From Butyricimonas sp. Marseille-P3923 (GTDB lineage Bacteria; Bacteroidota; Bacteroidia; Bacteroidales; Marinifilaceae), in assembly GCF_900184685.1 (NCBI RefSeq), contig NZ_FXXL01000007.1, positions 930,001-994,000 of the forward strand: 64,000 bases of DNA. The letters run 5' to 3'. Each line of letters begins with the position of its first letter. The stretch's first letter is position 1. Below, piece by piece: positions 9,833 through 25,102 of the stretch. The position numbers and the translations under genes are program-made. The notes under the pieces are model-generated. The model worked only from the letters and a program-made list of their open reading frames with translations, had not been told where the DNA came from and did not search any database.

Positions 9833-10843
9833 TCAATAGCAATCCCAATTATACAACACCCCGCTGAAATCCCTTTTCGCCAAATCATCCGGGCGGATAA
9901 AGAAGTTGCACACGCCATTGTCGCCCCACGCGATGCCGTTGTCACTGTCTGAATCCAGTTGGAAAAGCAGGACGGTATGCTCTTGGATACGCTCGTCATA
10001 CTCTCTAGGGTCGAGCTGCGTGAAAGAAGGATAGCCGCCGACACGGTGTCCCCCCGCCTCCAGTTGGGCGTACACCTCGTCGAAAACCGACTCGTCCACC
10101 CGGTCTAAAGTAGGCACGGTAGCGTCCGGGTGAGTTTGATTGTAGACCTCCAATAACAATTTCTCGAAACGGAAATCCCATGAAGTCATAGCCATAGACG
10201 CTTTCCGGAAGTTCAACTTTCTCTCTCCCGACAACGGGAAAGCATCCTCCATACCGGTCGTCGGCACCTCGGCGAGCAAACGGGAAGTATCCTCCGTCAC
10301 CCGCTCGTGATAAATCACCCGAAAGCCCTTCTGGTCTGTCCGGTTCTCGAAGTTCAACCCGAGGGAATCCTCCCCGCTGATATAGAACTGCAATATTCCC
10401 TCCCGCGGGAACCCCTCCAACGCGGGCATCTCGGCAAAGTTCAACTGCCCGAGGAAATGCAACGGCTTCTTCTCCCGTTCGGCAGGTTCGGCAACCTCCG
10501 TTAGCGTCGTGTCCCCCGCGATAATCTCCGGGTTCTCCACCCGCAGTTGTCCGGTACCCCCCAGAAGAACATCCGAGGGAGCCGTTTGCGGCTGTGGCGC
10601 GACGCTTCCCTCCGCCTGTACCGTGTAATCCGTTTCGTCACACGGGTACACGAACCCCTCCGGCATATAAGGAATACCCCCTATCTTACTGTTCCACGGC
10701 ATGGTCTGCTCGTCCGCAGGAACAAGCTCCGCGTAGTCCATTGTCGTCCTCTCGCGAATAATCTTCAACATCCTATCCGCCGAACTCTCTTTCTTCTCCC
10801 CGCCATTACCGCCACCACCGAATATTTTACCTAAAAATCCCAT
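9833..10843 (-). CDS. DUF1963/YwqG-family protein
   Basis: This is a 336-residue cytoplasmic protein of the YwqG family (DUF1963), whose function is unknown. A short glycine-rich N-terminus is followed by SKIGGIPYMPEGFVYP, then a QLNFAEMP segment that matches the family's typical Q-[IL]-[ND]-[FL] strand. ILQFYIS and a C-terminal LLFQLDSD, then IAWGDNGVCNFFI, complete the match. An insertion rich in P, E and T lies between about residues 65 and 125. The gene has its own TATATTTG promoter box (10900-10907) and is convergent with the channel gene, separated from it by a family B repeat. Confidence 0.88.
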   Translation of the reverse strand: MGFLGKIFGGGGNGGEKKESSADRMLKIIRERTTMDYAELVPADEQTMPWNSKIGGIPYMPEGFVYPCDETDYTVQAEGSVAPQPQTAPSDVLLGGTGQLRVENPEIIAGDTTLTEVAEPAEREKKPLHFLGQLNFAEMPALEGFPREGILQFYISGEDSLGLNFENRTDQKGFRVIYHERVTEDTSRLLAEVPTTGMEDAFPLSGERKLNFRKASMAMTSWDFRFEKLLLEVYNQTHPDATVPTLDRVDESVFDEVYAQLEAGGHRVGGYPSFTQLDPREYDERIQEHTVLLFQLDSDSDNGIAWGDNGVCNFFIRPDDLAKRDFSGVLYNWDCY

Positions 10844-10899
10844 AGTATATTGTTATTTAGTTTGCAAATTGTCATTCGCGAGTTACAGGTCGCACGTGA

Positions 10900-10907
10900 C
10901 AAATATA
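10900..10907 (-). promoter_or_regulatory. -7 promoter box TATATTTG for the DUF1963 gene
   Basis: Minus-strand TATATTTG lies 57 bases upstream of ATG 10843. It sits between two direct copies of AGTTTGCAAATT (10859-10870 and 10913-10924), so the promoter and the upstream terminator stem are interleaved. Confidence 0.45.
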
Positions 10908-10908
10908 G

Positions 10909-10942
10909 TAAAAGTTTGCAAATTACCATTTGCGAACTTTTA
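10909..10942 (-). terminator. Inverted repeat at the helicase stop codon
   Basis: On the minus strand TAAAAGTTCGCAAAT, a 4-base loop and ATTTGCAAACTTTTA form a long stem. The helicase TAA stop is the first three bases of the stem. An AT-rich tail follows, so this probably ends helicase transcripts. The related sequence at 10859-10884 has the same half-site plus a TTCGCGAGTT ending. Confidence 0.6.
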
Positions 10943-13633
10943 CCTCCACACGTTCACGTGTTCGATATCATCGGATAATTTGGTAGCCAGAGAATTCACC
11001 CGACAATGAAGCAGAAACTTACGCCCCTCCAGCGTGCGGGTAAACACCAGACGACATGCCCCGACTTCCTCCTCCCAATGCCGCCGCAGGCACTCGGCGG
11101 AGGCTTTCCTCTTCCCCAAAAGCTCGGGGACGGCATGGTAATCCTCCTGCTTCAAGCGACTCCATAGCCTGCTCTCCCGCACGATCACGTAACGGGGATT
11201 ATCCACGGGTGAGATAATTTCCTTCAAGGCATTGATAAATACCGATTTCTCGTAATTGGAACCGCCTTTCAGGTGACAGTACACGGCACCGGAATCATCG
11301 CCGTACGCCTCCACGCTCACCTCCCCCGGTGGCGAAAGTATCACCTTCTCGTCTTGCAAAGTCCATAGCAAAGCGCACCCTATCTTCCGTATATCCTTCG
11401 AGATATCGCGATATTTCAAGTAAAGACGCAATGCCTTCACCGCCGGGGGTAATATAACACAAAAACCGACCGCCAAAAAGACTAAAAGCACGGTAAACAA
11501 CATGCGCGAGGAATGTATTCGCGAACTCATCCGGGCAAAATCATAGAACATGACGTTAAGAACCGAGGACACGATGAAACCGAGTTCGACGAACAAGTAC
11601 TTGAGCGTTTTCTGCAAATACAACCGTTTCACCTCCTGAAACTTCTCCTTCTCGGGATACGGTACTTTGATCTCTTCCACGAGATGCACGCCCTGCCTCA
11701 CCGCCGCATCCCAACGCCCCCGCAACCGCTCCCTGCCGCCCGCTTCTTCAAAAGTACGTTGATTCCTCCGTTCAATGATTTCCCTATCGCACAAGGTCGC
11801 GGGAATATCGAGGCGCTTCACGCCATTCTCGATCTTCTCGCCCTCCCGGTCGGATATCCCGAGGAAGCCCTTGAACCTGCGTCGCAACAGCTCCACATCG
11901 TCACCCCCCGTGGGCGAAGTTGGGTCCGCACACACCAGATGCCATATATTCCCCGTCTTGGCGGCATTTCCCTTTTCTACCCGGATTGCCCGCCCGCGCA
12001 TCTGGTTCGACAGCACGAACGAACCGACAAAACTCGCCAGTATCAACGTGTTGATGCAAGGTGCATCCCACCCCTCTCCCAGCAACGACTTTGTACCGAT
12101 CAGAATCTCGATAGCCCCCCGCTCGAACATACAGGTGACAACGCGGGTTATCTCGTCCTTTATCATCCCGGTTAAAGCGACTTCGGCGTAAGAATCATCA
12201 TAAGGCAGGGGTTTCACGGACGCCTTTCCCAACCTCATCTCGCGCATCACCTCGTCCAGTACCCCCAACGCCGCGCGGGGTACGACCACGATCGAACCCG
12301 TCAGCACCCCGACACGATTTCCACCGGTACCCGACCGCCGCAACTTCTCGAACACGGGGAACACCCCCATTTTATCCAAAGGCAGGTCGTTCGCGGGTGA
12401 TGCCACTTTCCATTCCTTCCGTATGTAATCCGTCAATATCACCATCCGCAAACGGTCGCCCAACTGCCGGGACTCGAAAGAAACGATGTCGGCGATACTG
12501 TTCAACTTGCTTATACTCGCCGTCAGCATCCTCGTTAACCGACCGTTATACCGGAAACTGATCTGTTTCTTCTCCGTGACACCATTCCGCACCAACTTGT
12601 TTTCCAGAGATACCTGATGCTCCTCACGACCGATAAAAGTATCCCCTCCTCCCTGCAAATAAAACTCCAGCAATACCTCCATCCACGCGTAATCCAACGC
12701 GGGCACCCGTATGTTTTCCTGTCCCAGCACTTGCAGGTGGACAGGCGGAATCTCTTTCCCCGCGTGATGCAGGAATATCAACATGGCGGAATAGAAAGAC
12801 ATATGGTCGAATATCCACTCCAAGTACCCCGCAGGATCCACCCACGCGGGGTGATTCGCGAACGCCTCGATCAACACCGGGTCTTTCTGTAACTCCCGGA
12901 AGAGCGTATCGACATCCCGCCGGAATGCGTTGATGCGATCGTATTCCTCTGGCGAAGGCAAAGAATAATACACGTAATCCTGATGCGGACATAAATCTCC
13001 CTCGCGTATCAACTCGGGCACGGTAATCTCCGTGTCTACCGTTCCGTTCAATTCAAGGTAACGCTGCCACTCGGCAAACGTCACGTCGTAAGGCGGGGTT
13101 GCCGTCAGCCCGACAATCACGGGCGACAAGTGACTCTTCAGACGCTCAAGAGTATACCACCACTCGTTTTTCAGGTGATGAGCCTCATCCAGTATGACCG
13201 TCTTTACCCCCAACCGCTTTAACTCCCGTGTGATATTCGTCTTCGAGGCGGGTGCATCCCCGTTCTTCTCTTCATCCGGCAGGTTATTATACGCGGCATG
13301 CACCCCTTGGTACGTGCAGACCGTCACGAAAGCAGGCTTCCGTATATTACTTGATATCCATTCCGGCTTTCGATCGGTCTGTAAAAACAGCTCCCGGAAA
13401 CGATCTATCCACTGCTCCCGTATCGCCAGCGAGGGCGCCAGTATCAACGTCGGACGATTAAGCCTCAGCATAACCTCCAACCCCAATACCGTCTTTCCCG
13501 AACCGGGAGGAGCCACCACGTGGAGCGAACCGTTGGACAAATAAGCCTCCAGTTCACCCAATACCCGCGCCTGATACTTCCGCCACTCGTATTTGAATTT
13601 TATCCCCGCAGGGAATTCCGTCATTATTTCCAT
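10940..13633 (-). CDS. Superfamily II DEAD/DEAH helicase with membrane segments in the C-terminal part
   Basis: This protein has 897 residues; ATG 13633 is used because the extension to 13642 begins with TTG. The N-terminal helicase core has Walker A APPGSGKT (~40), DEAHH (motif II), TATPP (motif III), and in the second RecA domain LGEGWDAP and QMRGRAIR (motif VI). After the core, one hydrophobic stretch and then a second strong one (about residues 660-740, including LLVFLAVGFCVILPP) suggest anchoring in the inner membrane. A C-terminal domain of about 150 residues follows, with no family I recognise. A hydrophobic segment in such a helicase is unusual. It stands alone between its own promoter box (13656-13663) and a terminator stem. 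A defence role is possible but not shown. Confidence 0.85.
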   Translation of the reverse strand: MEIMTEFPAGIKFKYEWRKYQARVLGELEAYLSNGSLHVVAPPGSGKTVLGLEVMLRLNRPTLILAPSLAIREQWIDRFRELFLQTDRKPEWISSNIRKPAFVTVCTYQGVHAAYNNLPDEEKNGDAPASKTNITRELKRLGVKTVILDEAHHLKNEWWYTLERLKSHLSPVIVGLTATPPYDVTFAEWQRYLELNGTVDTEITVPELIREGDLCPHQDYVYYSLPSPEEYDRINAFRRDVDTLFRELQKDPVLIEAFANHPAWVDPAGYLEWIFDHMSFYSAMLIFLHHAGKEIPPVHLQVLGQENIRVPALDYAWMEVLLEFYLQGGGDTFIGREEHQVSLENKLVRNGVTEKKQISFRYNGRLTRMLTASISKLNSIADIVSFESRQLGDRLRMVILTDYIRKEWKVASPANDLPLDKMGVFPVFEKLRRSGTGGNRVGVLTGSIVVVPRAALGVLDEVMREMRLGKASVKPLPYDDSYAEVALTGMIKDEITRVVTCMFERGAIEILIGTKSLLGEGWDAPCINTLILASFVGSFVLSNQMRGRAIRVEKGNAAKTGNIWHLVCADPTSPTGGDDVELLRRRFKGFLGISDREGEKIENGVKRLDIPATLCDREIIERRNQRTFEEAGGRERLRGRWDAAVRQGVHLVEEIKVPYPEKEKFQEVKRLYLQKTLKYLFVELGFIVSSVLNVMFYDFARMSSRIHSSRMLFTVLLVFLAVGFCVILPPAVKALRLYLKYRDISKDIRKIGCALLWTLQDEKVILSPPGEVSVEAYGDDSGAVYCHLKGGSNYEKSVFINALKEIISPVDNPRYVIVRESRLWSRLKQEDYHAVPELLGKRKASAECLRRHWEEEVGACRLVFTRTLEGRKFLLHCRVNSLATKLSDDIEHVNVWR

Positions 13634-13766: not shown

Positions 13767-15311
13767 ATGAAAAAACTATATCCTATCGGTATTCAGAATT
13801 TCGAGAGTCTACGCAATGATGATTATCTTTATATTGATAAAACAGCATTGGTTTATGAACTGGTATCGTCCGGACGTTATTATTTCCTAAGCCGCCCTCG
13901 CCGTTTTGGTAAGAGTCTGTTGATTTCAACACTGGAAGCATATTTCCAAGGGAGAAAAGAGCTTTTCACTGGGCTTGCCATGGAAAAACTGGAAAAGGAA
14001 TGGAAAAGATATCCTATCCTGCACTTGGATTTGAATGCGCAAAAGTACGACAAACCCGATAGTCTGGATAACATATTAAACGACAGGTTAGCCGAATGGG
14101 AAGAATTGTACGGGAGCAGACCAACGGAGGTCAGTCCCTCGCTGCGTTTTAAAGGTATTATTCGCAGGGCTCGTGAAAAAGAGGGACAGGATGTAGTTAT
14201 CCTGATTGACGAATACGACAAACCTATGCTGCAAGCGATTGGCAACGAGGAATTGCAGAATGCGTACCGTAACACGATGAAAGCCTTTTACGGTGTACTT
14301 AAAAGCATGGACGGGTATATCAAGTTTGCCTTACTGACAGGAGTGACGAAATTCGGCAAAGTGAGCGTGTTCAGTGACTTGAATAATCTCGAAGATATAT
14401 CTATGGACAGGAAATACGTGAGCTTGTGCGGAATCACGGACAACGAACTGCATACCGGTTTCGAGGAAGACTTGCACGAGTTGGCAGCCACGCAAGGCAT
14501 GAGCTACGAGGAAACCTGCAAAGAGATGAAGGAACGTTACGACGGTTATCATTTCACGGCAAACTCGGAAGGTATCTATAACCCGTTCAGCCTGCTGAAT
14601 ACATTCAAAAAGATGCAATTCGGCAACTATTGGTTCGAAACGGGAACTCCCACGTATCTGGTGGAACTACTGAAACAGAATCGTTATAATCTGGAAAAGA
14701 TAGAAAACGTGGAAACCAGTGCCGACGTGCTGAACAGTATTTACAACGACGGGAGTGCTATCCCGGTGATATACCAGAGCGGTTACTTAACCATCAAAGG
14801 ATACGACAAGGTGTTCGGGCTCTACTCGTTAGGATTTCCCAACCGAGAGGTAGAAGAGGGGTTCATTCAATTCCTGCTTCCTTTCTACGCTAACACGAAC
14901 GCGGTAGATTCACCTTTTGCCATCCGACAGTTTGTCGGCGAGATTTGCACGGGTAATTACGACGCGTTCTTCCGACGCTTGCAAAGTTTCTTTGCCGACA
15001 CACCTTATGAATTGGCGAAAGATGTTGAATTACACTACCAAAACATACTTTTCATTGTCTTCAAATTGATAGGTTTCTATGTCAAAGCGGAATATCATAC
15101 CGGTGAAGGACGTATCGAGCTGGTTTTGCAGACAGACAAATATATCTACGTGATGGAATTTAAACTGGAAGGATCGGCGGAAGAGGCATTAAAGCAAATC
15201 AATGAAAAGCACTACGCCCTACCCTTTGAGGCTGATTCCCGCGAGTTATTTAAAATAGGAATCAACTTCTCCAAAAAGACGAGAAATATTGAAAAGTGGT
15301 TGGTAGAATAG
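13767..15311 (+). CDS. AAA-ATPase-like protein with C-terminal PD-(D/E)XK nuclease-fold domain (DUF1703)
   Basis: This is a 514-residue protein of a family present in many copies in Bacteroidota genomes. The N-terminal AAA-ATPase-like domain has Y-I-D-K-T, SRPRRFGKSL (Walker A variant, ~residues 40-50), ILHLDLN and VILIDEYDKP (Walker B, ~145). TGVTKFGKVSVFSDLNNL follows. The C-terminal domain (~390-510) has YHTGEGRIELVLQTDKYIYV and then MEFKL, the D-x(n)-E-x-K core of the PDDEXK_9 fold. The cellular role is unknown; the family is often suspected to be mobile or defence related. The gene has its own promoter and is convergent with the acetyltransferase, with only 9 bases between stops. Confidence 0.9.
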   Translation: MKKLYPIGIQNFESLRNDDYLYIDKTALVYELVSSGRYYFLSRPRRFGKSLLISTLEAYFQGRKELFTGLAMEKLEKEWKRYPILHLDLNAQKYDKPDSLDNILNDRLAEWEELYGSRPTEVSPSLRFKGIIRRAREKEGQDVVILIDEYDKPMLQAIGNEELQNAYRNTMKAFYGVLKSMDGYIKFALLTGVTKFGKVSVFSDLNNLEDISMDRKYVSLCGITDNELHTGFEEDLHELAATQGMSYEETCKEMKERYDGYHFTANSEGIYNPFSLLNTFKKMQFGNYWFETGTPTYLVELLKQNRYNLEKIENVETSADVLNSIYNDGSAIPVIYQSGYLTIKGYDKVFGLYSLGFPNREVEEGFIQFLLPFYANTNAVDSPFAIRQFVGEICTGNYDAFFRRLQSFFADTPYELAKDVELHYQNILFIVFKLIGFYVKAEYHTGEGRIELVLQTDKYIYVMEFKLEGSAEEALKQINEKHYALPFEADSRELFKIGINFSKKTRNIEKWLVE

Positions 15312-15320
15312 GAACCTATT

Positions 15321-16190
15321 CTACCGTATTTTCCGCTTGAGGTAGACCATGTCGACACATTGCCTGCCGTCCTCGATGATTGGTTCGGGGTAATTGTCCG
15401 TGAAGAAATTCTTTACCACGTGGTCGCATTCAAAACCGTATTGCTCGTAATACACCGTGCCGTAATCGCTGGTACCTACCCATAAATAATCGAAACGGTC
15501 TTTGTAGTGTTCAGCCAGCGCGGCCAGTATGTACCTACCGAAATACTGCCTCTGGTAGTCGGGATCGACGGCGAGGTTCTTTATTTCGCCCGCGGCATCC
15601 ACTACCGCCTCACCGATTACCCGTCCGTCCCGTTCGAGAATGAACATCTCGCCGTCGGGCAGGTAACGATCGACCATTTCCTCCGAGGGATCGGCAAGCA
15701 AGAGCAAGGAAAGATAGGCTTTCTTGTCACCCGTCACTTTTACCAATCGTTGGCGGGGATTCTTCAAGCGCATGTGCAAGAGCGGATAAGGAAAGCCGAA
15801 CCCGTCGAGGGCGCTACGGCTTTGCACCTCGAAACCCAGTTTCAGGTAAAAACCGAGGGCTTGCTCGTTCTGCTCGTTGACGGTAAGCGTTTCGGCGTGG
15901 TATTCGTCTACCGCCCTCTGTACCAGTTTTCGCCCGATACCCTTTCCCCGGTAATCGGGATGCACGAACAGCATATCTATATACGTGGAATCCAAACCGA
16001 GGAACGCCACCACCTCGTCCCCCTCGTGATGCAACAAAAGGGGTAGATTGTCGCAATTCTGCCGCACGTAAGGACGGTAGAAGACGATATCGCTTTCCTT
16101 CACGAAATGGTGGGTTGCCCGTACCGCGGCCTCCCATATCTCCGCGCAACGCTCGATGAGCTCTATACTTTTCTTACCTTTAATCATCAT
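15321..16190 (-). CDS. Tandem GNAT acetyltransferase
   Basis: This protein has 289 residues with two GNAT folds. The first (about 20-150) has VHPDYRGKGIGRKLV, the acetyl-CoA-binding Q/R-x-x-G-x-G/A loop, and NEQALGFYLKLGF. The second (about 155-285) has LAVDPDYQRQYFGRYIL and YYEQYGFE. The second loop is less canonical (R-Q-Y-F-G). The start is placed at 16190 because this ATG overlaps the TGA stop of the vWA gene (ATGA), which suggests translational coupling to the yeh-like operon. An ATG at 16208 is also in frame. The substrate is unknown. It may be the sixth gene of that operon. Confidence 0.88.
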   Translation of the reverse strand: MMIKGKKSIELIERCAEIWEAAVRATHHFVKESDIVFYRPYVRQNCDNLPLLLHHEGDEVVAFLGLDSTYIDMLFVHPDYRGKGIGRKLVQRAVDEYHAETLTVNEQNEQALGFYLKLGFEVQSRSALDGFGFPYPLLHMRLKNPRQRLVKVTGDKKAYLSLLLLADPSEEMVDRYLPDGEMFILERDGRVIGEAVVDAAGEIKNLAVDPDYQRQYFGRYILAALAEHYKDRFDYLWVGTSDYGTVYYEQYGFECDHVVKNFFTDNYPEPIIEDGRQCVDMVYLKRKIR

Positions 16191-17308
16191 GTGTTTTTTG
16201 ATAACCATATACTTATATCTTGTTTCGCTAAAGCGGTCGCCATTAAATCCGGGAATTTATCCGGCGTACAGGCAAAAGCGGGAACTCCCAATTCGGCTAG
16301 GAATTGGGCATTTTCTTTATCGTAGAAAGGCGCCCCGTCGTCGTTCAATGCCAGCAAAACGATGAGTTGTACCCCGCTCTGCACGAGGGAAATCATCTTC
16401 TCGCGCATCTCTTTCTCGTTCCCGCCCTCGTAAAGGTCGGTAACCAAGACCAGCACCGTGTCGGACGGACGGGTAATAACCGTTTGACAGTACCCCAAAG
16501 CACGGTCGATATCCGTACCCCCGCCCAATTGTACACCGAACAACAAATCCACGGGGTCTTGCAAGTCATCGGTCAGATCGACCACGGACGTGTCAAAGAC
16601 AACCATGCGGGTTTGCACCGCGGGAATGGAAGCCAGCACGGAACCGAATATCCCCGAATAAACGACCGAGGCACCCATGGAGCCACTCTGGTCGAGGCAA
16701 AGCACGATGTCTTTCAGCGCCCGCCGTTTCCGCCCGTAGCCGATACGCACCTCCGGGATAATCGTCTTGTACTCCGGTTGGTAGTTGCGCAGGTTCTTTT
16801 CTATCGTGGTTTTCCAGTCTATTTCGTTATAGCGGGGATTGCGACGCCTGCTGGAACGATTCAGCGCCCCCGTTACCGCTTGCTGCATCGGCGCGGAGAG
16901 TTTCTTCATCAACTCGTCGACGACCTTACGCACCACGTCACGGGCTATCGCCTTGTTCTTCTCGGGGATTACCCGACTCAGGGACATAAGCGTCGCCACC
17001 AGATGCACGTCCGGCACAATGGACTGGAGCATCTCTTTCTCGGTAAGTAAAGAGGTGAGGTTTAACCGCTTGATAGCGTCTTTCTGTATCACCTGTACTA
17101 CCGATTGCGGGAAGAATTCCCGGATATCACCCAACCAACGACTCACTTTAGGGGCAGAACCCCCCAGCCCCCCCCGCCGATCACTATCGTACAAGGCGTG
17201 CAAAGCATCGTCCACGCGGGACTCTTCGGGACTTAACGAGATTCCCGTGCCGTCCGCCGCATCACCCCCGAGTATCAACCGCCATCTTTTTAAAAGGGTT
17301 TCTTCCAT
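16187..17308 (-). CDS. yehP: vWA-domain protein, YehP-like (CoxE type)
   Basis: This is a 373-residue cytoplasmic protein. The N-terminal ~190 residues are helical, with a basic RSSRRRNPRYNEIDWKTTI linker. The C-terminal vWA domain has a complete MIDAS: DQSGSMG (~212), GGGTDIDRA (threonine and aspartate, ~270) and VTDLYEGG. The domain binds a divalent metal and a protein ligand, usually a partner of the MoxR ATPase. Length and gene neighbours match E. coli YehP (~378). It lies 30 bases after the DUF5682 gene and is coupled to the GNAT gene by an ATGA overlap. Confidence 0.9.
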   Translation of the reverse strand: MEETLLKRWRLILGGDAADGTGISLSPEESRVDDALHALYDSDRRGGLGGSAPKVSRWLGDIREFFPQSVVQVIQKDAIKRLNLTSLLTEKEMLQSIVPDVHLVATLMSLSRVIPEKNKAIARDVVRKVVDELMKKLSAPMQQAVTGALNRSSRRRNPRYNEIDWKTTIEKNLRNYQPEYKTIIPEVRIGYGRKRRALKDIVLCLDQSGSMGASVVYSGIFGSVLASIPAVQTRMVVFDTSVVDLTDDLQDPVDLLFGVQLGGGTDIDRALGYCQTVITRPSDTVLVLVTDLYEGGNEKEMREKMISLVQSGVQLIVLLALNDDGAPFYDKENAQFLAELGVPAFACTPDKFPDLMATALAKQDISIWLSKNT

Positions 17309-17338
17309 AATATTTACTTTAATAATTGAAAATACAGG

Positions 17339-19597
17339 TTACTTTATTCCCATTAGCTGCCACACCACAGGAATTACCTTTCTCGCGTCTTCCGCGTTAA
17401 AAGCTTCGTCCTGCATGTTTACACGCTTCACGCCGGAAGTTCCTTTGGCCTTCTCCCCCAGTTTCCGGCGTTCCGGTACGCTATACTCGCTGAACGTCCT
17501 CCGCAATATGGGCAACAATTCCATGAAGGTTTCGTCACCAAGGGAAGCCAGCCAACCATTCACGAGATCCCACAATTGCTCGTCCAATAAAAGGATAGTT
17601 CCCGATGATTTCAGGAATCCCTCGAACCAGAAAGCCGTTTCGGAAGCGGCATTCCCGCGGGAAGTATAGTATTGCAAGGTCTGTGCCGTTTCCTCGTATC
17701 CCAACACGTTTTTATCACGCAACAAACGGGTGGTATAACCGGATAACAAGGGATGACTGCTACGTGCCTCCCGAACCTTTTGCACGAGTTCCATCCACAT
17801 AGACGTTAATTCCTGTTGGTTTGCCGTGGCAACGGCATAATCCACGGCGACAAACTTATCCATAAGGTCGGACGCCGCATCCTCGTCTATATTGGCACAC
17901 GCCAGTACTCCTCCCGCCAATACTCTGGCCATCATGGCGTAGAGCATATCGTTCACCTTACCGTAATCCAGATTCCGCACGCTACCGTAACGCACCACCG
18001 TGACCATGCCGGGAATGGCTTTCATCATCTCGACGACATCCGTCACGGAAGCCGCCAGCACGTCCAGACGTTGCGTCATTTCCTCCACCAAATCGGGCAG
18101 GTCGGCGGGAATAACCCGTTGCAAGAGGTCTACCAACTCGGAAATGGAAGAGATGTCTTTCGACAAGTGCACGTTATACGACACCACCGCTTCCGCCAGT
18201 GTATTCCCCCAAACGGCCTTCTCGATAATAGCCAATGTCTGTTCCGGTTCGTAATAAACAGACCAAGACTCTTTAAAAGTCCCTTTCCCGTCGGTCGCTA
18301 TCGGTCGGGCCAAACGTATTCCCAACAAGTTCAAACGGTGGAAAACGATACTCCGTTCCAAATCGTTCGGCTTGCGCAAATCCAAGTTGTACTCCTTAAT
18401 TTCCGTGCTTAAAGGTAAACGTAAACGCTTCAACAATTTCTCCACGTCCACGAGTAGAGGCACTTTAGGAACATCGTCGGGTACATTTCCCATGCGATTG
18501 CTGATTACCAAAGCCTCCCGGATGATTTGCAGGACGATGGGATCGCCAAAACCCATTACCGTGGTAACGGCATCGTTGTACTCCTCCAACGACGGACGGG
18601 ATAAACCGCGTAAAGCCGCCATGACTTGCGCCAAACGTACCGTTTCAATCACGTGGGCGACGGAAATATCCATTCCCCTCGAACGAAACAAGGATGCCAC
18701 TTTACTCATCCAGCGGGTTCCGTCGTCATCGGGGTAATCCCACACGTGGTCGTACCAACCGGGAGAAACAATCCCCGCACCGTAACCGCTACGGTAAGAC
18801 AAGCGATCGTATGTCCACGGGATCCACGTGCATTCGACTTTTACCTTGGGCAAACCTTTCAGTATCTCGTTATCCTCTTTCTGCTTCGGCATATTCTCCA
18901 ACCCGGGCACGTGCCACGCTCCACAGATGACAGCTACGCGCTTGTATCCCTCCTTCTGTACCGCCCGAATCATCTTCCGCATCCATGCCTCCCGCAACGA
19001 CGTTTCCCGGTCTATTTTCGGGAAAGCCTCCCGCAAGGCGGTCACCGCCTCTTTGACGGCAAGGAAGATTTCTTCATTGTTCCGACGGTTCTCGAAATTC
19101 ACTTCCCACCACAATTCCGGATCATCGTACCCTGCCGCTTTTGCCAAAGCCTCGAAAGGATCGACATGTATCATTTCTTCGGGGGCTAAAGGTAACGAGT
19201 CCCCCGTGTTATCCGTTTCCCCCTGTCCTTCGCTCGCTTCTCGAGATTCAACCCGCTCTTCCCGTTCTTTCCATAACGCTAAATGATGTATCAAAGGCAA
19301 GTCGAAAAACCGAAGAGGTATTTCCCTCTTCATGGCAAACCGCATCGTCTGCCACTCCGGGGAAAACTCGGCAAAAGGATAGAAAACCGCACGCTTCGGT
19401 TCGTCGGGCTGGTAAGCCAACAAAGCCACGGGTGGTTGCATCTGCTCGCGGAGTACCCCCGGAAGCAAAGCCTCCGCCTCGGGCGGTCCCTCCAGTAATA
19501 TCATATCCGGTTCCAATTCTTCCAGATACGCCCTCACGTTTTTGGCAGAACCGGGACCATGATGCCGTATACCTAAAAAATGTATTCCATCAACCAT
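17339..19597 (-). CDS. yehM: DUF5682 protein, YehM-like
   Basis: This is a 752-residue cytoplasmic protein; ATG 19597 is chosen because the longer frame to 19639 overlaps the upstream gene and does not look coding. It opens with GIRHHGPGS (residues 9-17) and LLEGPPE (34-40). Further on come R-E-A-W-M-R-K-M (202-209) and ICGAWHVPG (224-232). These four landmarks are arranged as in the TIKI/TraB/EreA superfamily (see findings), which is my inference. The remaining ~500 residues are helical and typical of DUF5682. Residues ~110-140 are a charged insertion. Length and context match E. coli YehM (~759). It is the fourth gene of the operon, 19 bases after the MoxR gene. Confidence 0.88.
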   Translation of the reverse strand: MVDGIHFLGIRHHGPGSAKNVRAYLEELEPDMILLEGPPEAEALLPGVLREQMQPPVALLAYQPDEPKRAVFYPFAEFSPEWQTMRFAMKREIPLRFFDLPLIHHLALWKEREERVESREASEGQGETDNTGDSLPLAPEEMIHVDPFEALAKAAGYDDPELWWEVNFENRRNNEEIFLAVKEAVTALREAFPKIDRETSLREAWMRKMIRAVQKEGYKRVAVICGAWHVPGLENMPKQKEDNEILKGLPKVKVECTWIPWTYDRLSYRSGYGAGIVSPGWYDHVWDYPDDDGTRWMSKVASLFRSRGMDISVAHVIETVRLAQVMAALRGLSRPSLEEYNDAVTTVMGFGDPIVLQIIREALVISNRMGNVPDDVPKVPLLVDVEKLLKRLRLPLSTEIKEYNLDLRKPNDLERSIVFHRLNLLGIRLARPIATDGKGTFKESWSVYYEPEQTLAIIEKAVWGNTLAEAVVSYNVHLSKDISSISELVDLLQRVIPADLPDLVEEMTQRLDVLAASVTDVVEMMKAIPGMVTVVRYGSVRNLDYGKVNDMLYAMMARVLAGGVLACANIDEDAASDLMDKFVAVDYAVATANQQELTSMWMELVQKVREARSSHPLLSGYTTRLLRDKNVLGYEETAQTLQYYTSRGNAASETAFWFEGFLKSSGTILLLDEQLWDLVNGWLASLGDETFMELLPILRRTFSEYSVPERRKLGEKAKGTSGVKRVNMQDEAFNAEDARKVIPVVWQLMGIK

Positions 19598-19616
19598 TGT
19601 ATAAACTAAAAGATAA

Positions 19617-20696
19617 TTACAGCATTTCGCGAGAAGCACGGTAGATGTCTTTCCATCCGTCGCGTCCCTTCACTACTGTTTCCAAGTACTCCTGCCATAT
19701 CACCTTGTCCTGAACCGGGTCTTTCACGACAGCACCGATAATACCGGACACGAGATCGATAGCATTCAAGCGACCGTCACCGAAATAACCGGACATAGCC
19801 AACCCATTGTTCACCACGGATATAGCCTCGGCAGTACTTAACGTACCACTCGGTGTCTTCAATTTTGTTTTACCGTCCTCGGTAGCCCCGCCCCGCAATT
19901 CGCGGAAAATGGTTACCACCCGGCGAATCTCTTCCAATGCAGGTTTCTCGGCAGGTATATCCATCACGCCGGAGAAGCTCTCTACCCGACGACGGACAAT
20001 ATCGATCTCCTCGTCAATCGTGTCGGGCAAAGGAAGAATTACCGTGTTAAAACGACGCTTCAAGGCACTCGACAATTCATTCACTCCCTTGTCACGGTTG
20101 TTGGCAGTAGCGATCACGTTGAACCCCCGTATAGCTTGAATCTCTCTGTCCAGTTCAGGAATAGGCATAGCCTTTTCCGAGAGAATCGTGATTAACGTGT
20201 CCTGCACGTCCGATCCCACGCGGGTCAATTCCTCGATACGAGCCAGTTTCCCGTCTTTCATCGCCCGCATCACGGGAGTTTGCACCAAAGCCCCTTCGCT
20301 GGGACCTTCCGCCAGTAACTTGGCATAATTCCAACCGTAGCGAATGGCTTCTTCTCCCGTCCCGGCGGTACCCTGCACTATCAGCGTCGAATCACCCGAT
20401 ACGGCTGCCGCCAAATGCTCGCTCACCCAACTCTTTGCCGTTCCGGGCAGACCGTACAACAGCAAAGCCCTGTCCGTAACCAGTGTTGCCACGGCTATCT
20501 CTATCAACCGCCGATTTCCAATATATTTAGGACTCACTTCAAACCCGTTTTTCAATGTACCTCCCATAAGATAGGTCACAACGGATTGCGGAGATAGTTG
20601 CCAGTTCTCCGGAACCTTATTTGTTTCATTCTTCTTTAACTCGTGTAGTTCTTCCTCGAACTGCTGTTCCGCGTGTCGTCTTAATAATAAACCCAT
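19617..20696 (-). CDS. yehL: MoxR-family AAA+ ATPase, YehL-like
   Basis: This is a 359-residue AAA+ ATPase. Walker A is GLPGTAKS (82-89), followed by a GTAGTGEE loop. The Walker B region reads KLARIEELTR, where the usual hhhhDE is I-E-E, and sensor 1 is VIATANNRDKG. The arginine finger segment is LSSALKRRF and the C-terminal helical lid follows. This degenerate Walker B and the gene order fit the YehL branch of MoxR ATPases, which act as chaperone-like remodelling motors with vWA partners. E. coli YehL is ~362 residues. It is the third gene of the operon, 81 bases after DUF5691; this gap holds a hairpin (20733-20748). Confidence 0.92.
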   Translation of the reverse strand: MGLLLRRHAEQQFEEELHELKKNETNKVPENWQLSPQSVVTYLMGGTLKNGFEVSPKYIGNRRLIEIAVATLVTDRALLLYGLPGTAKSWVSEHLAAAVSGDSTLIVQGTAGTGEEAIRYGWNYAKLLAEGPSEGALVQTPVMRAMKDGKLARIEELTRVGSDVQDTLITILSEKAMPIPELDREIQAIRGFNVIATANNRDKGVNELSSALKRRFNTVILPLPDTIDEEIDIVRRRVESFSGVMDIPAEKPALEEIRRVVTIFRELRGGATEDGKTKLKTPSGTLSTAEAISVVNNGLAMSGYFGDGRLNAIDLVSGIIGAVVKDPVQDKVIWQEYLETVVKGRDGWKDIYRASREML

Positions 20697-20732
20697 ATTT
20701 CAAGTTATAAAAAAGTTAATATCAAAAAACGT

Positions 20733-20748
20733 CAGCCCCGTGCGGCTG
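20733..20748. other. Small GC-rich hairpin between DUF5691 and moxR genes
   Basis: CAGCC-CCGTGC-GGCTG lies in the only sizeable gap of the operon, with an AATCTTAAATC word beside it. It may modulate transcript levels within the operon or stabilise mRNA ends. It lacks a T-run, so a strong terminator is unlikely. Confidence 0.35.
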
Positions 20749-20777
20749 GAATCTTAAATCAACAATCACTATATCAT

Positions 20778-22256
20778 TTAATTAATCAGGCTTTCTTCTA
20801 TATCCTTCTTGATTTGCAGTAGTTGCTGCATACGAACGGTAAATTCCCAATGGCTGTTGCTATTCTCTTTCGTTGCGCCCAGTTCCCCGATATAGCCTAA
20901 CAATGAAGCGGGTATACGCAGAGCCAGTTGCTCGCAAGTCGGACGGTCGTAATAGCAATATGTCATAGAATAGAGTATTCTCAATACCCCTCGGGAAAAC
21001 TTCACTCCCCACTCCTCGTCCGTATCGTCCAACCATTGCGTCACGTAAAAGTTCTGCTGTACTTTTCCCTCCAGATTTAATTCTTCCCGTTGCTCGACAG
21101 GCAAAAGAGGTACCAATGATGTCAACTCCGGGGATTGCAATACCCGTTCTCCTTTCAACCAATAGTAAGCCCATTGTCGGTCATGGAAGGTAAAAATAGC
21201 GTTCTCCAAACAAATATACTTGGAGAAAGGCGGGGACTTACGCAACCGCTGTGCCGCGGTTTCAGCGTCACATTCCAACAGTTCGCACCAAAAGGAGAGA
21301 GGCACATTTTCAGCCATTTGCCTTAATATGTAATCACTGTCGCTCTCGCCCTTGTTACTACTAAGTTCGCTGATACCCGCTTTTTTCAACTCCTCGGAAT
21401 ACGCAATCGGCTCTACAGCCCAGCCGAGCAAACGACGGTAACGCAAATGCTGCTTCAATGTCCGGGAATACAACTCCACTATATTGGAATCGGGTATTTG
21501 CCGCAACAAATCTAAGGCACAGTCCTTTACCGTGCTACTACGATCTCCGGCACGTACGCTTTCCAGAAATTCTTCATCCGATTTAGACAAACCGATTTCC
21601 AAACAAGCCAATAATTCCGCGCGATGTTGTGCCGACTCGTTCTTCCATTCCGCCCGCAATAATTCAAGACCTTGGGCGGGATTGTCCTTCCTCACGCGGG
21701 ACAAAATCAGCTTCCGGTCAGCATGAGTCGCCGTTTCCCAATCTTCATTTCCTTCCTCCTGCAAAGGCGGATAGTTCATCAACGGCAATAACCACCGTCC
21801 CCGGTTACCAATCAGGGAAGGCAAGAATTGTTTCTCGCGCTTTGCCGTCTGGCTACCGGGCAAGAATACCCTTCCCAATACCCCCGGCAAATACTCCGCC
21901 GGAATCAGATAACCGTGCTTTGCTGCCGTCTTGTACCATAACAGTAGCATGTAGGAGTATTTCTCCCCCAATAACATTCCTAAAAGAGCCGCCGCTTTCT
22001 TCCCGGCGTATGGCATTGTTTCCGGCTCCGCTTCCGTGACCGGAACCGACTCCTTAAACTTCAAGGGTTCCAAACCGGAACGATAATAAGCAAACAAAAC
22101 GGCAGCCGTCTTGTAAAAAACTTCTTCCCCGTCCGCAGCACTCTCTTTTACCTTCAACAAAGTATCGCTCAAATCTTCCGGCAATTCCCCCTCCGTCAAC
22201 TCCCGGTTTGCCGTACCCAATAGGGCAGTATTTATTATATTATCCGTTATACTCAT
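20778..22256 (-). CDS. DUF5691 family protein
   Basis: This is a 492-residue cytoplasmic, mainly helical protein of unknown function. The N-terminus (MSITDNIINTALLGTANRE) and the later LLPVEQREELNLEG-type segments match what I know of DUF5691, a family found next to SWIM and MoxR/vWA genes. No catalytic motif is visible; the many leucine-rich helices suggest a scaffold or HEAT-like repeat. The start codon lies 17 bases inside the end of the SWIM gene in another frame, which indicates tight translational coupling. Confidence 0.82.
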   Translation of the reverse strand: MSITDNIINTALLGTANRELTEGELPEDLSDTLLKVKESAADGEEVFYKTAAVLFAYYRSGLEPLKFKESVPVTEAEPETMPYAGKKAAALLGMLLGEKYSYMLLLWYKTAAKHGYLIPAEYLPGVLGRVFLPGSQTAKREKQFLPSLIGNRGRWLLPLMNYPPLQEEGNEDWETATHADRKLILSRVRKDNPAQGLELLRAEWKNESAQHRAELLACLEIGLSKSDEEFLESVRAGDRSSTVKDCALDLLRQIPDSNIVELYSRTLKQHLRYRRLLGWAVEPIAYSEELKKAGISELSSNKGESDSDYILRQMAENVPLSFWCELLECDAETAAQRLRKSPPFSKYICLENAIFTFHDRQWAYYWLKGERVLQSPELTSLVPLLPVEQREELNLEGKVQQNFYVTQWLDDTDEEWGVKFSRGVLRILYSMTYCYYDRPTCEQLALRIPASLLGYIGELGATKENSNSHWEFTVRMQQLLQIKKDIEESLIN

Positions 22257-23574
22257 TATTCAACGTGTAATATTTATCATCTATCCATAACGATAACACT
22301 CTCCACCTACGCTCCCCCGCCATGAAGAAACCCGTGAATTCACGACCTCCCGTCACGGCAAGACCTTTCAAGCGTCCGGCTTCTCCCACGCTCAAGGCGA
22401 ACAAACGGGCGTCGCTATCCTGCAACCAAAGTTGTCCCTCGTGTATCACGAAGCGTACCCCGTTCACGATCATCGGCACCTCGTAAGTAAAAGGGTTTAC
22501 CGTCAGCACTTCCCGGAATCTCCGCGTAGCTTCCGTCAAGTTCATATACCCCGCGTTCCCGTCTGTAAGGCAGAATACCCCCCCACTTCCCCGTTGTTCA
22601 CGTACCAGCACCCGGGTAGGATTCATTCCCCGGTAAAAGGTTACATCGGCACGAACTACCGTACCGGGTAATAATGCCACCTCCGGCAACGAGCCCGCCA
22701 TGATGAACTGTAAAAGCAGCGCATATCTTTTACTCTGTCGTCCGTACAACCAATTATACTCTACCGTCAGGCGGTCTTGCTCTAGCGACTCGGTACCCAC
22801 GACATACCAATCATCCGTTACCGTTTCCCCCTTTGCCAGCACCTCCTCTTTAGCCTGCGGGTATCCCACGAGAGTACGAATCTCGTCCTTCCAATCATCG
22901 GGCAATTCGTCCAAATGCTTGTAACTCTCCGCCACAAGGTATGCCTTGCTTAATAGAGCGGTCAATTCGTATTTCCAATCCTCCCCGAAATAATTGATTT
23001 CCTGCAACTGCCGCATCATCCCCGCCAATCCCGGAGCCTGCGAATCGACCATGCGCTTCGCTATCCCCTCGAACAGCGCCTGCGCACGTTCCGGCACGTT
23101 CAACAAACCGTTCCGCACCAAATCCTTTAGCCAACCCTGCAAATCCTCGACACCTCCCAGTACTTTCCGATGCCTCGCTTCCTGACGCTTTGCCTGTGCC
23201 GCCGCATCCACCGGTTTATCGCTCTTCTCTTTTTTCTCCGCCACCTTGTTCTCCCGTTTATTCAACCACTCCGCCACCCACGCGGGTTCCTCTCCGGTCG
23301 AAAACAAGTTTGGCTGTGAGGCATACAGAAACAGTAATCCCAAACTATGTTTACAAGGAAATTTATGACTTGGGCAAGAACATTTGAAAGCTATATTCTG
23401 CAAATCCACCTGTGTCTGGTAAGGATTCGCCCCGCTTCCCTGACAATGTCCCCACAACGCCCGTTCACTAGCCCCCCGCAACACCCACTTCGCCGCCGAA
23501 GCCAAACCCTTCCCGGCTTTCACGGATGCCGCATCAGGAGCTAACTTAATAATCTGCTCTTCTGATAATTGCAT
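22240..23574 (-). CDS. SWIM zinc-finger protein, YehQ-like
   Basis: This is a 444-residue protein. The SWIM motif C-x-C-x6-C-x-H is complete: C65, C67, C74 and H76 in FKCSCPSHKFPCKHSLGL. SWIM fingers bind DNA or protein in the MuDR/Swi2 families. A lysine- and glutamate-rich linker (about 105-140) is followed by ~300 residues that resemble YehQ-type proteins but contain no other motif I recognise. It is the first gene of the five-gene operon, after a TAAATTTG promoter box. Confidence 0.88.
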   Translation of the reverse strand: MQLSEEQIIKLAPDAASVKAGKGLASAAKWVLRGASERALWGHCQGSGANPYQTQVDLQNIAFKCSCPSHKFPCKHSLGLLFLYASQPNLFSTGEEPAWVAEWLNKRENKVAEKKEKSDKPVDAAAQAKRQEARHRKVLGGVEDLQGWLKDLVRNGLLNVPERAQALFEGIAKRMVDSQAPGLAGMMRQLQEINYFGEDWKYELTALLSKAYLVAESYKHLDELPDDWKDEIRTLVGYPQAKEEVLAKGETVTDDWYVVGTESLEQDRLTVEYNWLYGRQSKRYALLLQFIMAGSLPEVALLPGTVVRADVTFYRGMNPTRVLVREQRGSGGVFCLTDGNAGYMNLTEATRRFREVLTVNPFTYEVPMIVNGVRFVIHEGQLWLQDSDARLFALSVGEAGRLKGLAVTGGREFTGFFMAGERRWRVLSLWIDDKYYTLNNEYNG

Positions 23575-23704: not shown

Positions 23705-25102
23705 TCATTCGGCAAATACTGATTTCAATTCTTCCACTTCATGAATATCCTCCACTTTCTGACGAACAGAACCATCCGGGAGCACGATGATAAAAGTCGG
23801 GAAAACATCTACACCAAACTGTTTAACCAATTTAAGCCCCTCTTCTTTTTCTACATCATATTTCAAACAAAGGAAATTTCGGTTCAACAAGTCACTGATA
23901 TTTTCTTGTTCAAGTATTGATTCTATCAGTTTCCCTTTCAAATTGTCGTTATTCATAAAACCGTAAATGAACAGTTTACGACCTTGGCGTCCCGCTTTCG
24001 TTAAAGCTTCCTCGTAACTCAGATTCTGAAAATAAACACCCACGCTTGCCGCTATTTTTAGTGACTCGAAATAATTCGCCACGTAATCAGTACTGTTTCC
24101 GGCGGCAATATTCATGTATTTATCCTCCAAGCGAATAAGTCGATTCAAATCTTCTTTCGTTGCTTTCCCCCGGATAGCATTAATCGCATTCATGGTTGCC
24201 CACAGTTCCCCGTTTTCATTTGTTTCGACTTCCCCCGCCAGAGCAATCACTTTTTCAACATCACGCTCTGCACTAGCCAGCATCAATTCCAGATTACGGG
24301 TTAAAAGTGCCTTATCCGGCAAATCAAGTGGAGTCAATTCGCCTTGCATTTGTTTCAGTAATTCCACGGAATCCATCGAAAAACGCAATTGCTTGGTAAA
24401 CGTATTAACCAAATATTGATCCACTTTTTCTTTACCAATATTCTTATAAAAAACGAAAATGTGGTCTAAAACAAGCTGACAATCCGCGGTACCGTATGCA
24501 CTCTTCTCTAGAATCGGCCAATACTCTTTTTTCATTTTATCTTTCCGGGTCAACATGGCATTCAATCTCTCTCCGACCTCTGCACTTTTCTCTTTTTCGA
24601 AAGCCTCGTTCAATGCTATTTGATAAAGCATCAATTGGTGTTTATTCATTTTCCCTTGCTCGTGCAATTTTTCCAAGTAATCAAGAGAAGTCTTCGGGTT
24701 CAATCCCCGTTCTACCCTTGCTATAATTTTATCAAGATCTCCGCCACCGACAATTTTATGTTGTACGGTACCGTCGGGACGAATAATGAAAAATGTCGGA
24801 AAAGCTTTTATATGGAATTTCTTGGATAACTCTTTCCCCTCTCCTTTTTCCATGTCAAATTTCACTGAAACAAATTTCGGGTTAAAGAAATTTCCGGCTT
24901 TCTCCCGCGGAAAAACATTATCCGTCATGTATTTGCAAGGACCACACCAGCTCGTGTAACAATCCATGAATACAAGTTTATTCTCCGCTTTGGCCTTAGC
25001 TAAAGCTTCCTCAAATGTGAGATGCTCGAAATTTACTCCTCCTTGACTGAATGCCGAAAAGCATTGTGACAGAAGGGTTACAATTAAAAATATACTTTTC
25101 AT
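23705..25102 (-). CDS. Secreted two-domain thioredoxin-like protein
   Basis: This is a 465-residue protein with a signal peptide (about 1-19). The N-terminal thioredoxin-like domain (25-135) has the active site W-C-G-P-C (C53/C56) and the cis-proline region AFPTFFIIRPDG, so it is a probable periplasmic thiol reductase or oxidoreductase. A helical middle (140-350) follows. The C-terminal domain (360-465) repeats the fold, with NLSYEEAL, FIYGFMNNDN and VFPTFIIVLPDGS, but lacks the CxxC. It follows the PKD-like gene of a SusCD locus on the same strand, separated by a hairpin (25133-25160), so it may be partly independent. Related SusCD loci in this group often end with such genes. Confidence 0.87.
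   Translation of the reverse strand: MKSIFLIVTLLSQCFSAFSQGGVNFEHLTFEEALAKAKAENKLVFMDCYTSWCGPCKYMTDNVFPREKAGNFFNPKFVSVKFDMEKGEGKELSKKFHIKAFPTFFIIRPDGTVQHKIVGGGDLDKIIARVERGLNPKTSLDYLEKLHEQGKMNKHQLMLYQIALNEAFEKEKSAEVGERLNAMLTRKDKMKKEYWPILEKSAYGTADCQLVLDHIFVFYKNIGKEKVDQYLVNTFTKQLRFSMDSVELLKQMQGELTPLDLPDKALLTRNLELMLASAERDVEKVIALAGEVETNENGELWATMNAINAIRGKATKEDLNRLIRLEDKYMNIAAGNSTDYVANYFESLKIAASVGVYFQNLSYEEALTKAGRQGRKLFIYGFMNNDNLKGKLIESILEQENISDLLNRNFLCLKYDVEKEEGLKLVKQFGVDVFPTFIIVLPDGSVRQKVEDIHEVEELKSVFAE

Follow-up and report, generated by a model that had tools for sequence, protein, structure and literature searches.

Five adjacent genes of Butyricimonas sp. Marseille-P3923, encoding SWIM, DUF5691, MoxR, DUF5682 and vWA proteins, form a genuine, conserved system that belongs to the known YehL type. 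Their products are best explained as one ATP-driven machine, in which a MoxR ATPase and a vWA protein would work around a hydrolase of the TIKI type, an explanation to which we give an even chance. It is based on gene order, retention of the genes as a set, gene fusions, the conserved motor, the metal ion-dependent adhesion site (MIDAS) of the vWA protein, and putative catalytic residues. The genes lie in a window of 64,000 nucleotides, the whole stretch of DNA analysed, which is part of contig NZ_FXXL01000007.1 (positions 930,001 to 994,000) in a genome of 5.3 Mb and 7 contigs. They are read on the minus strand from 23574 to 16187 in the order SWIM, DUF5691, MoxR, DUF5682 and vWA, followed by a gene for a GNAT acetyltransferase (Table 1). 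The original prediction, made from the letters alone, had described five genes in one direction with overlaps or short gaps and a GNAT gene coupled to them by ATGA, and all six were recovered by gene calls, Pfam and reading of the junctions. The SWIM and DUF5691 genes overlap, 81 bases lie between DUF5691 and MoxR, and the stop codon of vWA forms an ATGA overlap with an ATG (16190) of the GNAT frame, the longest version of which begins at 16208. For DUF5682, the ATG at 19597 was preferred to a GTG at 19639 as a matter of judgement.

The cluster was compared at 87 loci, comprising the window, six loci from Bacteroidota genomes and the best 80 of 554 confirmed ones, which is a biased and not a random sample. 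Genes were called with iterated hidden Markov models (HMMs). One stretch holds all five genes at 67 loci, at 66 of them in the order given above, and the cluster is therefore not a product of chance; conservation across genomes, on which the original prediction depended, was thereby established. The 67 consist of 61 plain clusters, two with a GNAT gene, two with SWIM and DUF5691 in a single frame, one with split frames (L063), and one with the vWA gene upstream (L069). Extra genes are interposed at a few of them (L029, L076, L084). At the remaining 20 loci at least one gene is absent from the stretch covered, and several of these stretches stop at a contig edge. According to the NCBI labels, 41 of the 87 rows belong to Bacteroidota, 13 to Pseudomonadota, nine to Cyanobacteriota, seven to Chloroflexota, four to Planctomycetota, two to Melainabacteria and one each to four more phyla, ten phylum labels in all, while seven rows carry no label. 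The branches of the DUF5682 tree mostly follow the phyla. The same gene order is annotated on plasmids of Deinococcus and Rhizobium, and a plasmid of Methylosinus has the first four annotated and no vWA, in a gene table that calls itself incomplete.

Evidence that the genes belong together came also from genomes in which the cluster is broken. DUF5682 is present in seven of 296 Bacteroidota genomes. DUF5691 was detected at E<=0.001 in eight, including all seven with DUF5682. Six of the eight matches, all from genomes with DUF5682, were above the cut-off; below it were G162, which has DUF5682, and the eighth genome, G014, with a weak match and without MoxR, vWA and SWIM. The seven DUF5682 genomes all contain MoxR and vWA, and six contain SWIM, which is absent from G162. 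In four of the seven this co-occurrence is expected, since the genes are linked there. In G037, the five genes are found in five separate places. In G178, they occupy four regions on three contigs: DUF5682 and vWA lie close together on opposite strands, with the remaining genes elsewhere. In G162 the vWA gene sits on a different contig. Whole-genome searches for DUF5691 and MoxR were made in eleven further genomes, chosen by way of loci that lack the full cluster. Each of the two was present in ten; in G297, a cyanobacterial bin, neither was found by the whole-genome search. Among the 11 loci concerned, L053 already had MoxR adjoining DUF5682, and L050, L073 and L088 start at most about 230 bases from the upstream contig end. 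For L073, MoxR is probably adjacent to DUF5682 after all, because the end of a MoxR gene was found at the end of what is apparently the same contig. Seven loci (L037, L047, L048, L071, L081, L087, L093) have 2.9 kb or more of upstream sequence, all of it free of MoxR; in six of these cases the genome contains both DUF5691 and MoxR. On a FastTree tree of 80 rows, change between the clustered and unclustered states required six steps; states were assigned by hand, seven contig-edge rows were removed, and L050 and L073, in which no vWA gene follows, were counted as not clustered. Linkage was lost repeatedly while the parts were retained, which indicates a single functional unit with no need to travel as a cassette.

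Gene fusions of two kinds were found. A single frame encodes SWIM and DUF5691 at two loci from planctomycetes (L057, L082) and on a plasmid of Hymenobacter (L179). DUF5682 and vWA are joined in one annotated protein of 1255 amino acids on a plasmid of Streptomyces atratus (L177), which matches DUF5682 with E 6.7e-203 and VWA_CoxE with 8.9e-65. Together, the fusions suggest two arms, SWIM-DUF5691 and DUF5682-vWA, flanking MoxR. Gene order, retention of the set and both fusions lend weight to what had been proposed from the letters, a conserved multi-protein unit with MoxR as motor, vWA as its partner and DUF5682 as a possible enzyme.

The motor itself is conserved. In the MoxR proteins, K88, E155, E156, N199, R214 and R215 are present in all 73 aligned sequences and S89 in 70 of them, so that the nucleotide-binding and arginine residues are intact. 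Solved relatives of MoxR are midasin and NorQ, the latter with E 3.7e-05. The vWA protein, for which no solved structure of note was found, has a complete MIDAS, D206, S208, S210 and D291 being present in 71 of 71 sequences and T265 in 69 of 71. Its best vWA family match, VWA_CoxE, is one reason to consider that DUF5682 might be a client rather than the effector, into which a MoxR-vWA chaperone inserts a metal or another cofactor as NorQD and CoxDE do, with SWIM and DUF5691 aiding folding or delivery. Known MoxR-vWA pairs are described as assembling or maturing particular partners (PMC7159879, PMC13036017, PMC9976466), and the conserved His and Glu residues of DUF5682 could bind metal. The fusion in Streptomyces, however, suggests that DUF5682 is a standing part rather than a passing client, and two more conserved proteins exceed what a MoxR-vWA pair with its client needs. 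A client role is possible, but on the unlikely side.

In the SWIM proteins, C65, C67, C74 and H76 are invariant in all 66 aligned frames of 250-700 amino acids. DUF5691 is probably a HEAT-like helical solenoid: the family consensus matched HEAT with E 3.7e-4 and 20.9 bits, under the cut-off of 23.5, and the DUF5691 profile scored 45.4 against the HEAT part of DUF4132 proteins, compared with 20.4 for the reversed control. DUF4132 genes are beside or inside the cluster at eight of the 87 loci, following it at seven loci of Chitinophaga and its kin and lying inside it in Pinibacter (L029); the Pfam identification was run on L020 and L029. A DUF4132 protein also heads the cluster on the Streptomyces plasmid. 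As a universal sixth part DUF4132 was ruled out for Bacteroidota at large, being present in eight of the 296 genomes and in none of the seven with DUF5682. Its solenoid may take the place of DUF5691 in the clusters of E. coli and Streptomyces.

In E. coli, HMMs of the window families matched YehL (MoxR) with 289 bits and E 1.1e-89, YehM (DUF5682) with 267 bits and YehP (vWA) with 311 bits, and judged by these scores the three are true relatives of their counterparts. The likeness to yehLMPQ noted in the original prediction holds for these genes and for a SWIM protein being encoded alongside. It fails for the SWIM protein itself and for DUF5691. YehQ was not matched by the HMM of the window SWIM family, the match being limited to SWIM as such; it is encoded last, has two SWIM stretches and, contrary to the similar lengths that had been stated, comprises 614 amino acids compared with 444 in the window. 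No DUF5691 match was obtained among seven E. coli genes tested or in an E. coli control genome. A further difference is the DUF4132 protein YehI, which is encoded upstream of yehL-yehM-yehP-yehQ. In the E. coli K-12 annotation, yehM is uncharacterized and yehL putative. Recovery of yehQ and yehM in butanol and copper selections is on record, and the passages concerned offer no mechanism. In one E. coli strain (NZ_CP137737.1, 1867916-1871259), yehM is interrupted by an element of the IS5 family.

The distribution of the genes bears on a further explanation, that of a stress or conflict system akin to vWA-MoxR ternary systems, in which SWIM would sense nucleic acid and MoxR-vWA would free a toxic TIKI-like effector. 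Such systems combine the same motor logic with added components (PMC7159879). The MoxR protein is just over the Pfam cut-off for bpMoxR (27.8 vs 27 bits), though far closer to AAA_5, the cluster is sporadic in Bacteroidota (7/296), and in some species it is located on large plasmids. On the other hand, yehM matches were found in 5284 of 5426 complete E. coli genomes, 5166 of them with at least 80% of the gene, and 5289 of 5291 places are chromosomal. Retention of the genes after loss of linkage also speaks against a conflict system, as does the presence of DUF5682 in one of 50,697 phage records. Among 72,556 plasmid records, DUF5682 was found in 31, some being chromosome-sized. When the six proteins and their three neighbours were scanned with Pfam, no VMAP, iSTAND, beta-propeller or effector domain was found. 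PADLOC (E 0.01) gave no match for five of the six proteins and, for MoxR, two marginal IetA matches, the better with 0.0018 over 30 residues. A conflict system is very improbable, and a role in phage defence, a context raised in the original prediction, is not supported; the density of defence genes around the loci was not measured. The phage record mentioned above, MT835988.1, is an unannotated entry of 14 kb from human faeces named Bacteriophage sp., in which a DUF5682 protein with 28% identity is encoded at 10641-12758. The record may be bacterial DNA.

The proposed enzyme is DUF5682. The TIKI superfamily is characterized by a GxxH motif, a Glu and a second GxxH. Both GxxH motifs and the conserved Glu of this definition are present in DUF5682 (H12, E36, G226, H229). 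In 83 aligned N-termini including E. coli YehM, G9, R11, H12, H13, E36, D99, R202, E203, M206, G226 and H229 are invariant, with the conservation of G9 and H13 overstated, as apart from YehM all rows are the window or were picked by the pattern G[IV]RHHG. Of the 87 sequences, two near-duplicates were left out and three failed the pattern, two with PIRHHG and one with GIRHLG; in these three H12 is kept, and G9 and H13 vary. Shared His and Glu residues are also described among TIKI relatives (PMC6254334). Aligned to a TraB profile of 13 sequences, G9, H12, E36, R202, G226 and H229 meet conserved G, H, E, R, G and H, and D99 meets the E of the L-E-T motif. With a second TraB set of 12 sequences including E. 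coli YbaP, both GxxH motifs and the Glu are in register, and the R is not. The conserved G, H, E, R, M and H of an Ere profile (13 sequences) are met by G9, H13, E36, R202, M206 and H229, and in a ChaN profile (20 sequences) N is paired with D99, P with P101, D with E203, M with M206, and G and H with G226 and H229. The N-terminal profile scored 24.9 with TraB, 21.8 with the second TraB set, 25.8 with ChaN and 17.7 with Ere. No shuffle reached the TraB or ChaN scores (0/120 each) or that of the second TraB set (0/150), and four non-TIKI families used as controls scored 19.8 or less. For scale, TraB and ChaN scored 24.2 with each other, TraB and Ere 20.5. When the 83 members were scanned against Pfam (E up to 10), three matched TraB and one ChaN, with a best E of 0.0041 each, the lowest among the 24 non-self families listed; 33 more families were matched. 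The TraB match in L065 places residues 191-241 on profile positions 194-245, that is, on the stretch of the last GxxH. A scan of viral contigs for further TraB proteins yielded one locus, which was not used.

Several results weigh against a TIKI assignment. In the Ere alignment H13 and not H12 meets the histidine and D99 is two columns off, and the ChaN alignment runs only from D99 onward, the first motifs being out of register. The full-length registers were obtained with a lowered alignment threshold, the default matches being local and covering 33 to 46 columns, and the profile probabilities were low (3.0 and 3.8%). The Ere score was reached by 34 of 120 shuffles. HMMs built from local sets gave no decision: those for TraB and Ere did not separate DUF5682 from decoys (5.4 vs 5.9 and 2.4 vs 6.7 bits), that for ChaN did so slightly (5.0 vs 3.0 bits), and the top score of this decoy test belonged to DUF5691 (9.3), which is not a TIKI family. 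The DUF5682 consensus matched neither TraB, ChaN nor any other TIKI family in Pfam, and solved-structure searches gave no credible match. In addition, catalytic residues and activity are missing from some TIKI folds (PMC6254334). These points could mean that the N-terminus is not TIKI-like, that the GIRHHG and GAWH motifs arose separately, and that the protein is a scaffold, which would be compatible with either of the other readings that involve a complex. The column check, with Ere one residue off and ChaN partial, slightly raised our estimate for this view. It nevertheless appears improbable, since conserved residues coincide with columns conserved in TraB and Ere, and in ChaN for the last motifs, and the scores lie above all shuffles for two of the three families. 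From sequence comparison we infer, with good confidence, a TIKI-type fold for DUF5682, the N-terminal domain of which is probably a hydrolase, with the conserved residues as putative catalytic ones. For the C-terminal part of about 450 amino acids, Pfam gave no credible match other than DUF5682.

Table 1. Positions of the features in the window, and of DUF4132 genes at other loci
Feature	Position	Strand	Remarks
SWIM zinc-finger protein	22240..23574	-	444 aa (amino acids); Pfam SWIM 9.9e-05
SWIM motif C65-x-C67 ... C74-x-H76	~23347-23382	-	
DUF5691 protein	20778..22256	-	492 aa; Pfam 1.4e-77; probably HEAT-like helical solenoid
MoxR AAA+ ATPase, YehL type	19617..20696	-	359 aa; Pfam AAA_5 1.9e-35
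MoxR Walker A, residues 82-89	~20430-20453	-	further residues E155 E156, N199, R214 R215
DUF5682 protein	17339..19597	-	752 aa from ATG 19597; Pfam 3.2e-252
TIKI-like N-terminal domain of DUF5682 (probable)	18728..19597	-	residue conservation, profile comparisons, weak Pfam matches to TraB/ChaN
First GxxH of DUF5682, G9..H12	19562-19573		
E36 of DUF5682	19490-19492		
Second GxxH of DUF5682, G226..H229	18911-18922		D99 and R202-E203..M206 precede it
vWA (CoxE-like) protein	16187..17308	-	373 aa; Pfam VWA_CoxE 2.4e-49
vWA MIDAS, D206-x-S208-x-S210	~16679-16693	-	further residues T265, D291
Double GNAT acetyltransferase	15321..16208	-	Pfam GNAT families at two places in a single protein
DUF4132 beside or inside the cluster (Bacteroidota, E. 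coli, Streptomyces)	L029 12430-15417; L020 13465-16404; L094 280-3912; L177 869-1735		

Taken together, a machine of the following kind is envisaged. In NorQD, a finger of the vWA domain is described to enter the NorQ ring; the strain that the ATPase then puts on the NorD linker allows metal to be inserted into the target (PMC13036017, PMC9976466). By analogy, MoxR would form a ring with vWA as its partner, and DUF5682, with its N-terminal domain of the TIKI/TraB/ChaN/Ere superfamily, would be held by or fused to vWA. SWIM and the HEAT-like DUF5691, fused in some species, would constitute the second arm and bring the target by recognizing it. ATP hydrolysis by MoxR would then strain and pull the vWA-DUF5682 arm, and the pull might open, mature or activate the putative hydrolase or pass the target to it; in proposing this we infer both complex formation and the direction of the force. 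In a more specific version, the proteins would be an ATP-dependent protease or hydrolase of new design, composed of a MoxR ring, a vWA arm, a TIKI-type active site and substrate choice by SWIM-HEAT. This version is considered doubtful. If it were true, there would be a protease or hydrolase machine unrelated to ClpXP, Lon, FtsH and the proteasome, one form of which would be near-universal in E. coli.

GNAT was ruled out as a core part, since it is present at two of the 87 loci only; it is a lineage-specific neighbour, and the view that it adds something of note is not supported. Other recurrent neighbours are mostly lineage-bound, and those scanned are signalling proteins. Small hypothetical genes are located between MoxR and DUF5682 in Deinococcus (L175, 6747-6983), Hymenobacter (L179, 6368-6979) and L009 (7699-8728). 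In the window, the protein encoded directly upstream of the SWIM gene (23705-25102, minus strand) contains two thioredoxin-like stretches. The DUF5682 protein of Butyricimonas synergistica is the closest named relative among the matches listed (85% identical). In this species (L014, 13417-18082), a short gap separates GNAT from the genes that come next, for a ResIII/DEAD helicase and for DUF1963, which are read the same way. The window differs in having an AAA-ATPase-like/PDDEXK_9 gene of opposite orientation (13767-15311, plus strand) between GNAT and the helicase, and the difference looks like an insertion in one genome or a loss in the other.

The cluster had been regarded as the best candidate in the window for an undescribed system, but a YehL subfamily of MoxR proteins has been named previously (PMC3893208, PMC11432383), so that operons of this kind are not undescribed. 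New are the likely TIKI identity of DUF5682, as far as its sequence tells, both types of fusion, the evidence for retention as a set, the connection with DUF4132 and the HEAT-like character of DUF5691. No paper on DUF5682 was found in the literature searched, and none joining MoxR-vWA motors with TIKI hydrolases, in a search that did not pair Tiki with MoxR and in which subscription literature was mostly outside. The interpretation offers a first testable mechanism for five genes that have long been without one, naming residues to mutate and partners to pull down in E. coli, where yehM is present in most genomes. If it is true, two well-studied groups, MoxR-vWA motors and TIKI hydrolases, become joined.

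The cluster can be compared with three further kinds of known system. The ternary conflict systems also combine MoxR and vWA with a third component, of the VMAP, iSTAND or beta-propeller type (PMC7159879); in the main text of that paper SWIM, YehL and Tiki are not mentioned. With the TIKI superfamily (TraB/PrgY/GumN, ChaN, erythromycin esterase, Tiki), DUF5682 shares the GxxH followed by a Glu, and the R-x3-M ahead of the last GxxH. The Glu is located 24 residues past H12 in DUF5682 and 26 in the corresponding position of TraB, compared with 28 in Bcr135 (PMC6254334). Unlike members of the superfamily, DUF5682 has the long C-terminal part, is associated with MoxR and vWA, and shows weak sequence significance over the whole domain. 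The pairs NorQ/NorD, CoxD/CoxE and RavA/ViaA consist, as here, of a MoxR AAA+ protein and a vWA protein with a MIDAS. The cluster differs from them in that no known enzyme client is encoded in it and that the pair is accompanied by three extra conserved partners, one of them apparently TIKI-like.

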